Assembly (NCBI GenBank): GCA_013792005.1
Contig: VMSU01000174.1
Span: 1 to 45,774, forward strand
From: Desulfobulbaceae bacterium
GTDB taxonomy: Bacteria; Desulfobacterota; Desulfobulbia; Desulfobulbales; VMSU01
Direction: 5' to 3'
Length of the DNA: 45,774 nt
How positions within the stretch are numbered: the stretch's first letter is position 1; each line of letters starts with the position of its first letter. A program made the position numbers and the translations under genes. Below the pieces are notes generated by a model, which was given only the letters and a program-made list of their open reading frames with translations, was not told where the DNA came from and did not search any database. Of this stretch, positions 8,147 through 37,561 are shown piece by piece.

Positions 8147-8499
8147 GTAACTACACAGGTTAACGGCAATCAGTTATTGATGGCGTCGCAAAAAGTCCGA
8201 TCTACTGCGTTGCGTGGCGGTTTTGCTCGTTCGGCATACCAGATGTATGGCCTCACTCACAAAACACACCCCGCGCCTCGGAGTCTCTCTTCGATCGCTT
8301 ACCTGTATATCGCACCTTTTGCTTAGCCATCCCCGGACTTTTTGCGAGATTGTCAGTTATTGGTTTACGGTTAAAAGAATCATGGTTAGTCATAAATCAT
8401 CGCATGACACTCAATGTCAGTGTGTCCTTAGCCATTGGCAGGGTCCAATCACCGTCAACTGCCAACTGTCAACCGTAAACCTACAACCTGAGCAGTTAC
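8147..8499. repeat. Dispersed palindromic repeat, family A, copy 2, interrupted by a MITE
   Basis: The left arm (GTAACTACACAGGTTAACGG from 8147) and right arm (ending CCTGAGCAGTTAC at 8499) belong to the same family as copies at 4386, 17204 and 45706. Removing the 176-bp element at 8179-8354 and one 7-bp duplicate restores a 170-bp element, the length of copy 1. Beyond the insertion the sequence GGTTTACGGTTAAAAGAATCATG closely matches copies 3 (inverted) and 4. Confidence 0.85.
8179..8354 (+). mobile_element. MITE-like element, family C, copy 1 (176 bp, 7-bp target duplication)
   Basis: The element starts GATGGCGTCGCAAAAAG and ends CTTTTTGCGAGATTGTC; the ends match as imperfect 17-bp terminal inverted repeats with TCGCAAAAAG identical. 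It is flanked by AGTTATT on both sides (8172-8178 and 8355-8361), a 7-bp target duplication. It has no plausible gene. A second copy in the opposite orientation, with its own different 7-bp duplication, is at 36727-36901. It was inserted into a repeat A copy. Confidence 0.9.
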
Positions 8500-35126: not shown

Positions 35127-36707
35127 TCAATGTCCCACCTTCTTGATCTGTTTGGCATAGTCAAAATCCGGATCATGAGGTGGAATGTGACAGTGCAAAC
35201 ATACCGAAGGACTCGGTGTGCTGACCATGGCATTGCCCTTTGGCGCTACGGCGTGACCTCGCCCTGCACCATGGCATGATTCACACCCCACCCCTCTTAG
35301 ATATTCAGGCAGAGACAATGCCTCCTTACCTTGAGCCATGGACATACCAGTAACATGACACGGCAAACACTCCGGGTTGAATTGCTGTCGAGCCTTCTCC
35401 AAGGTCTTAAAAGCCATAGCATGAGGTGTTTTCAACCAGGCTGCGCGCTGAGCGCTGTGACACTGTCCGCACCCCGTACTCCCGAGATAGAGCTGACTGA
35501 CAGGAGCAGATGGTTCCATCTTGCTCTGTTGTTGACCCAAGGAATTAACCGCCTCTTTAAGACGAGTGACTATCTCAAGCACCTCAGGCTGGTCAGGCAG
35601 GCTGACTTCCATGGGCACAAATCGGTTGCGGTACGTCGCAGGCTGCCCATTGGTTGCCACATCCTTCTTTATCTCTATAGTCAACTTATCTATGTCACTC
35701 ACAAATTCACGCTCTCTCCCCTGCAGGAGATGGTATGTATTTAATTGATCAGGGCGATTGCGCAGGGCGATTTCAGGATCTTTCTCCTGCCGAAATTGTA
35801 GAAGATGAAAACGAACCTGCTCCAGAGCCTCTTTTTTACGGATCAAAGCTTCTCCCTTCTGGTTGTCCCACCATTTGCTCGGTTGCCAATCGATCTCCAT
35901 GACTCCAAGCTGCTTGCCTTGCGACCCGACACTCACAACTACCGTATTATTGATCGGTTCAGGGGTGATAGAGTTTGCTGAAACCCCGGACTGAATGATC
36001 AAATGAACGGTCTTGTACCTTTCAGCTATACGTTGATTATCTGCAACAGGGAGGTTGGACAAAATAACAACCAGATCGTGTTTCTTACTGACTTTAACGA
36101 GCAATTCGGGCAGAACCTGATCCCAAGGCAGGATCATGGCATCTTCAGTGGCGGGGAGTATCGCCGGTCCGGTCAGACCTATCACTCCAACCTTAACATC
36201 ACCCGCCTTCAAGGTCACACCAGGCCGAACAATTAATTTCTTCGTCGATCTGGTCACGAGATTAGCGCTGACCCACACAAACTTCGATTTCTTACGCAAC
36301 GATTGCAGAAAAGGAATACCCGCAGCAAGATCTTTTCCTCCAACCGCAACCGCATCGTAGCCCATAACGTCATAAGCCTCAACAATGGCTGCGGCCCTCA
36401 ACGTACCAAGCGTCTCCTGGCCAGGAAGAGTGACAGCGCCACCCTTAAACAACAGGTCTCCCGCATCCAGAGTGAGATGAGACCTGGCCTCATCCTTAGT
36501 GGCAATGGCATTCAACTGAAAGGCTTTCTTGGACAGACCGCCCAACTGATGGCTATGTCAGCCGCAGGGCTCCGTCTCGCCATGGACATCGTTGGAATAA
36601 AATATCATCAAATCAAGATCTTGCCCAACTGACACTACCGGACAGACACAAACAAGCAACATAACAAGAATGATACGTTCTATGGCATATACAAAGATCT
36701 TCATCAT
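35127..36707 (-). CDS. Probable selenoprotein: secreted metallophosphatase-like domain fused to tetrahaem cytochrome c
   Basis: The gene reads through one in-frame TGA (36560-36558) at codon 50, read here as selenocysteine; about 526 residues. From ATG 36707 there is a signal peptide (RIILVMLLVCVCPVVSVG), then YSNDVHGETEPCG, the UGA codon, HSHQLGGLSKKA. This is the first motif of the 5'-nucleotidase/UshA-like fold (Asp40-x-His42), with Cys48-Gly-Sec50 where family members, as I recall, carry Pro-Cys-Gly-Cys. The second motif LDAGD follows (81-84). GGKD (123-126) stands where Asn-His is usual, so phosphatase activity may be lost. Four haem sites lie at 413-417 (CGQCH), 447-451 (CLPCH), 475-479 (CESCH) and 503-507 (CLHCH), in a cytochrome c554-like pattern. 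Secretion is predicted. No good ribosome site is seen, and a MITE lies 19 bp upstream. A frame starting TTG at 36545 would lose the signal peptide and is rejected. Confidence 0.85.
36529..36560 (-). promoter_or_regulatory. Predicted bacterial SECIS element following the UGA codon
   Basis: The UGA (36560-36558) is followed 18 nt later by a hairpin TTGGGC-GGTCT-GTCCAA (36545-36529): a 6-bp stem with one G-U pair and a GGTCT loop. The spacing and the loop sequence match what I recall of the E. coli fdhF SECIS, which recruits SelB with Sec-tRNA. Confidence 0.8.
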
Positions 36708-36726: not shown

Positions 36727-36901
36727 GACAATTTCGCAAAAAGGTAGTCGATGTCTAAGCAAAAGGGCCGATATACAGGTAAGCGAGCGAAGAGAGACTC
36801 CGAGGCGCAGTGTGCTTTTGCGAATGAGGCCACACATATGGTGTGCCGAATGAGCAAAAGTGCGCTGCAACGCAGTAGATCGGGCTTTTTGCGACGCCAT
36901 C
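36727..36901 (-). mobile_element. MITE-like element, family C, copy 2 (175 bp, 7-bp target duplication)
   Basis: This is an inverted copy of the element at 8179-8354: read on the minus strand it starts GATGGCGTCGCAAAAAG and ends CTTTTTGCGAAATTGTC. AAATTTT flanks it on both sides (36720-36726 and 36902-36908), a 7-bp target duplication unrelated to that of copy 1. Its centre contains the near-palindrome GGCACACCATATGTGTGGCC. It lies directly upstream of the selenoprotein gene. Confidence 0.92.
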
Positions 36902-36908
36902 AAATTTT

Positions 36909-37561
36909 CATTACAATATCAGACTGAAGAAGATAGAAAAAAACCTGCAGTTAGTAGTATGTTCATACCGAAAGATCTTCTTTGCCTGACCTTCAAACCA
37001 ACCACCTGGCGGCTGCAATTTTATCAGTATCTTTTTTCCTTAAGAATAACAACATAGGTGTCACTGCACATGAAAATGATCCTCCATGATAGCATGCGCC
37101 AATTAAAAAATTCAACCGAATAGAGACGTCCTTTTACTCCTTTACCCTTAACACCCCACATCGAACAAACAATTTCACAACCTCGATTTGACTATGATTT
37201 CGTAACCATTCAGCATCTTCAACACCACTTGGCACTTTCAATCCCGAGGTTCTAGAAAATTCTGGCCCCCCTGATGAATGGTTCAATTAATTCATATAAA
37301 TTTTATCGTATTTACAAAAAACTAGATATTATTCTAAACTTCGTTTACATTTATTAGTTTAAAAAGGTTGTTTTTTGTTGTTTTGAATATTTTCAACACC
37401 TTAGGCATCATCAAACATACCCCTATACTTTCAGCGTACGAGAGTGTTGAGTACTCGACGGTCTTCCCACTTCGACTCCTCGCCTCAAGAAACCACACCA
37501 TTTAATTAATTATTCCTCATAACTTTCACTCTTACTTAAAAAATAAGCAAAGGAGAAATCT
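36909..37561. other. AT-rich non-coding region upstream of por
   Basis: No gene is supported in these 650 bases. A weak promoter candidate is TTTACA at 37311-37316 and TAAACT at 37335-37340 with an 18-bp spacer; another TATACT lies near 37423. The long leader and divergent neighbour suggest room for regulation, but I recognise no operator. Confidence 0.4.

Follow-up and report, generated by a model that had tools for sequence, protein, structure and literature searches.

A predicted exported selenoprotein of the UshA-like PCGU family with a tetrahaem cytochrome domain in a Desulfobulbaceae bacterium

Introduction

Inventories of bacterial selenoproteins published in 2008, 2022 and 2026 carry a family described as UshA-like with a CxU motif, for which COG0737 UshA-like is the label in use (PMC2398784, PMC9312934, PMC13188914). 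In the Global Ocean Sampling selenoproteome, UshA-like, CxU was counted with 76 sequences in the 51 previously described families (PMC2398784), and the NCBIfam accession NF041198 is given for the UshA-like selenoprotein in the most recent inventory (PMC13188914). When we searched the literature for a function of this family, only inventory tables were recovered.

Several described proteins resemble parts of the gene product reported here. The 5'-nucleotidase UshA of Escherichia coli shares the fold of the N-terminal domain at about 18% identity, but most of the metal ligands are degenerate, and a selenocysteine (Sec) motif and a haem domain are added. The thiosulfohydrolase SoxB has the same fold and is devoid of Sec, while cytochrome c554 shares the C-terminal domain, which is fused here to the UshA-like domain. 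The closest relative is the NF041198 family itself, from which the product does not differ in substance: the full-length match, the PCGU motif, the interchange of Sec and Cys and the cytochrome C-terminus are all common to both.

Results

The locus lies in a 45,774-nt stretch of Desulfobulbaceae DNA that was analysed as a whole (the window). On the minus strand, a reading frame runs from an ATG at 36707 to a stop codon at 35129-35127 and is interrupted by a single in-frame TGA at 36558..36560 within the context FYSNDVHGETEPCG-UGA-HSHQLGGLSKK. ORF calling with translation table 11 yielded only a 472-aa cytochrome ORF begun at a TTG at 36545. The original prediction had continued this frame upstream through the TGA into a signal peptide, and the frame is indeed open to ATG 36707, from which it encodes a hydrophobic, signal-like N-terminus. 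If the TGA is read as Sec, the complete gene (35127..36707, minus strand) specifies a UshA-like/tetrahaem cytochrome protein of 526 aa with Sec at residue 50 in a Pro-Cys-Gly-Sec motif. A Cytochrome_C554 domain (Pfam PF13435, E 9e-15) with four CxxCH motifs at residues 413, 447, 475 and 503 occupies approximately 35154..35489 on the same strand; together with the N-terminus, this multihaem domain agrees with the predicted, probably secreted cytochrome fusion. Immediately upstream of the gene we found a copy of a roughly 180-bp intergenic repeat (36730-36910, minus strand) that is also present at 8177-8351 (plus strand) and in about 40 copies genome-wide at 79-100% identity. Its ends appear inverted (GCGTCGCAAAAAG / CTTTTTGCGAAAT), resembling a miniature mobile element.

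The 526-aa product scored 571.4 bits against NF041198 (UshA_like_PCGU, "UshA-like (seleno)protein"), for which the cut-off is 275. Since residues 14 to 518 align with positions 5-519 of the 519 profile positions, the domain order is the same as that of the family. The PCG motif followed by Sec or Cys that characterizes NF041198 is present, and PCGU of our protein aligns with PCGC of homologues. With 36.6 bits against a cut-off of 140, the product falls outside the related NF049981 (UshA-like selenoprotein family 2). The suggestion in the original prediction that the protein may be undescribed has to be given up, because the family is curated in NCBIfam and listed in the three published selenoprotein inventories; the gene is a further member of a PCGU family that has been on record since at least 2008. 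Judged from sequence, we hold with high confidence that UGA is read as Sec in this gene and that its product is an exported member of the UshA-like PCGU selenoprotein family.

An AlphaFold model of the protein (pLDDT 90, pTM 0.84) places a UshA/SoxB-like metallophosphatase-fold domain at approximately 35850..36617 on the minus strand. The model superimposes on UshA with a Z score of 32 at about 2.0-2.2 Å over 271-278 residues and on SoxB with a Z score of about 31; the SoxB profile TIGR04486 gave 50.5 bits, far below its cut-off of 550. We mapped the metal-ligand positions of UshA by alignment onto 31 family members. Position D40 is Asp in 23 of the 31, H42, the His of the Asp-x-His motif, is His in 11, and position 84 is Asp in two. 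In the GNH motif, Asn-His is swapped for a variable pair that is followed by a conserved Asp-Leu. Three later ligand positions are unconserved, with Ser, Asn or variable residues at the later His sites. Across these members most of the presumed ligand columns are thus degenerate, and a UshA-type two-metal ligand set was not found. On the other hand, C48, G49, Sec/Cys50, Q54, G56, G57, L58, W145, W195, W280 and the haem motifs are invariant in the family. Because these sites persist while the metal-ligand columns decay, the conserved chemistry would be expected to reside at PCG(U/C) and the haems. A Cys-Gly-Sec pair beside the metal site had been anticipated, and of this the pair itself stands, as PCGU or PCGC, whereas its proximity to a metal site is weakened by the loss of most ligands, including H42 in all but 11 members.

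These data bear on the question of whether the protein could be a working metallophosphatase, similar to 5'-nucleotidase or SoxB, in which Sec either coordinates the metal or tunes the site. Such an activity would fit the structural match and the window's own copy, which retains D40, H42 and D84, but it is hard to reconcile with the 31 members, where H42, position 84, the Asn-His of GNH and three later ligand positions have degenerated, and we regard it as unlikely. From the residues at these positions we infer instead that phosphatase activity has probably been lost.

We then compared the UGA codon across relatives. Querying genome contigs with the single protein returned no match, and an alignment query retrieved 283 relatives. 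An above-cut-off family match is present in 125 of 146 related genomes, and most of these matches contain exactly one internal stop, a TGA, which in the extracted relatives aligns with the identical codon. A pattern scan of named relatives, which belong to Desulfobacterota, Myxococcota, Planctomycetota and other groups, counted 30 with U and 41 with C at this position. In Cys homologues TGC or TGT takes the place of TGA; of the eight that were extracted, one of them a paralogue from the same genome, seven have PCGC and one has SCGC. Both expectations of the original prediction, Cys at the UGA position in homologues and recurrence of UGA in relatives, were therefore borne out. Motif readings in four entries of the pattern scan (L128, L142, L147 and L172) were discarded as chance pattern matches away from the true site.

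The paralogue in the same genome (L022:1453-3033, contig C51) carries PCGC, has no TGA and is 48% identical to the selenoprotein, and its hairpin codons have drifted. Comparable pairs of Sec and Cys genes occur in several related genomes. Outside the main phylum, the myxobacterial Archangium violaceum Cb vi76 carries PCG-UGA together with a matching hairpin, TCTGGC-GGTCT-GGCCAG.

Downstream of the UGA, a putative bacterial SECIS-type hairpin, TTGGGC-GGTCT-GTCCAA, lies at 36529..36545 on the minus strand. Exactly as had been claimed, it starts 12 nt past the TGA and consists of six pairs, one of them G-U, with a GGTCT loop that begins 18 nt past the UGA. These loop, stem and spacing values fall inside published limits for bacterial SECIS elements (PMC13188914). 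Taken by itself, however, the hairpin is weak evidence, since 329 of the 2052 TGAs in the window (16%) are followed by a 6-bp hairpin within SECIS-like limits and since single-sequence folding of a 37-nt stretch did not recover it. Another pairing was preferred, with a z score of -0.46 that is no better than that of shuffled sequences and an energy of -7.2 kcal/mol compared with a published guide value of -7.5 (PMC13188914). A search of the window against Rfam gave no match. This result does not count against the hairpin, as Rfam is not known to include a family for the bacterial SECIS element of such a gene.

The case for the hairpin is therefore comparative, and it gains its significance from recurrence in relatives. 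The six stem pairs form in 93% of all cells across 71 UGA sequences versus 43% across 46 Cys sequences, GGTCT is kept as the loop in 65 of the 71, and the outer (first) stem pair covaries between T-A and C-G (Fisher p 9e-5 without correction for relatedness). Furthermore, the three codons past Leu55 in 46 UGA genes are GGC in 100%, GGT in 91% and CTG in 98%; at other near-invariant Gly and Leu positions of the same 46 genes, the top codon accounts for only 33-80%. Pairing and synonymous codon choice are thus frozen in UGA members and have drifted in Cys members. Such a pattern points to selection on the RNA that is linked to the UGA, and we give it more weight than the poor fold of the single sequence.

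The machinery for Sec insertion, which the original prediction had proposed to look for as selA, selB, selC and selD, is present in full in the same genome. We identified selA (614 bits), selB (385 bits), two selD genes (382 and 343 bits) and a tRNA-Sec with the anticodon tca. Three FdhA genes of this genome also contain an internal TGA. The second SelD gene (L019, contig C98:27331-28260) has one internal TGA, and its product is for this reason probably a selenoprotein itself; the other SelD gene is TGA-free.

A genuine stop at this TGA, or an error in sequencing or assembly, with the cytochrome starting at TTG 36545, would agree with the table 11 ORF and with a hairpin that on its own is no better than chance, but this explanation is ruled out by recurrence of the same TGA in relatives of many genera, and with Cys replacing it in other homologues, hairpin codons frozen with TGA and drifting without it, and Sec machinery in the genome, we give it practically no credence.

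Discussion

Considering these results together with the reading of UGA as Sec, we propose that SelB and tRNA-Sec, aided by the adjacent GGTCT-loop hairpin, would insert selenocysteine at residue 50 of a protein in which a metallophosphatase-fold domain, stripped of most of its metal ligands, is joined to a c554-like domain with four haems. Most likely the Cys-Gly-Sec pair would carry out thiol/selenol redox chemistry, or bind a substrate or a metal, and trade electrons with the haems. We give the redox role roughly an even chance. An enzyme that works by redox or selenol chemistry and hands electrons on to the tetrahaem domain fused to it appears likelier than a phosphatase.

This case confirms that reading a sequence alone can reveal a true selenoprotein, even though the family was already catalogued. 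In this family a conserved PCG(U/C) motif and four haems come together in a fold whose metal site is degenerate, which suggests that the name UshA-like misleads. Somewhat more tentatively, and at slightly less than an even chance, we put forward that the family is misnamed and may represent an exported redox enzyme, not an esterase, in which a fold that lost its metal site would scaffold a Cys-Gly-Sec pair wired to four haems, with a substrate that is perhaps a sulfur compound.
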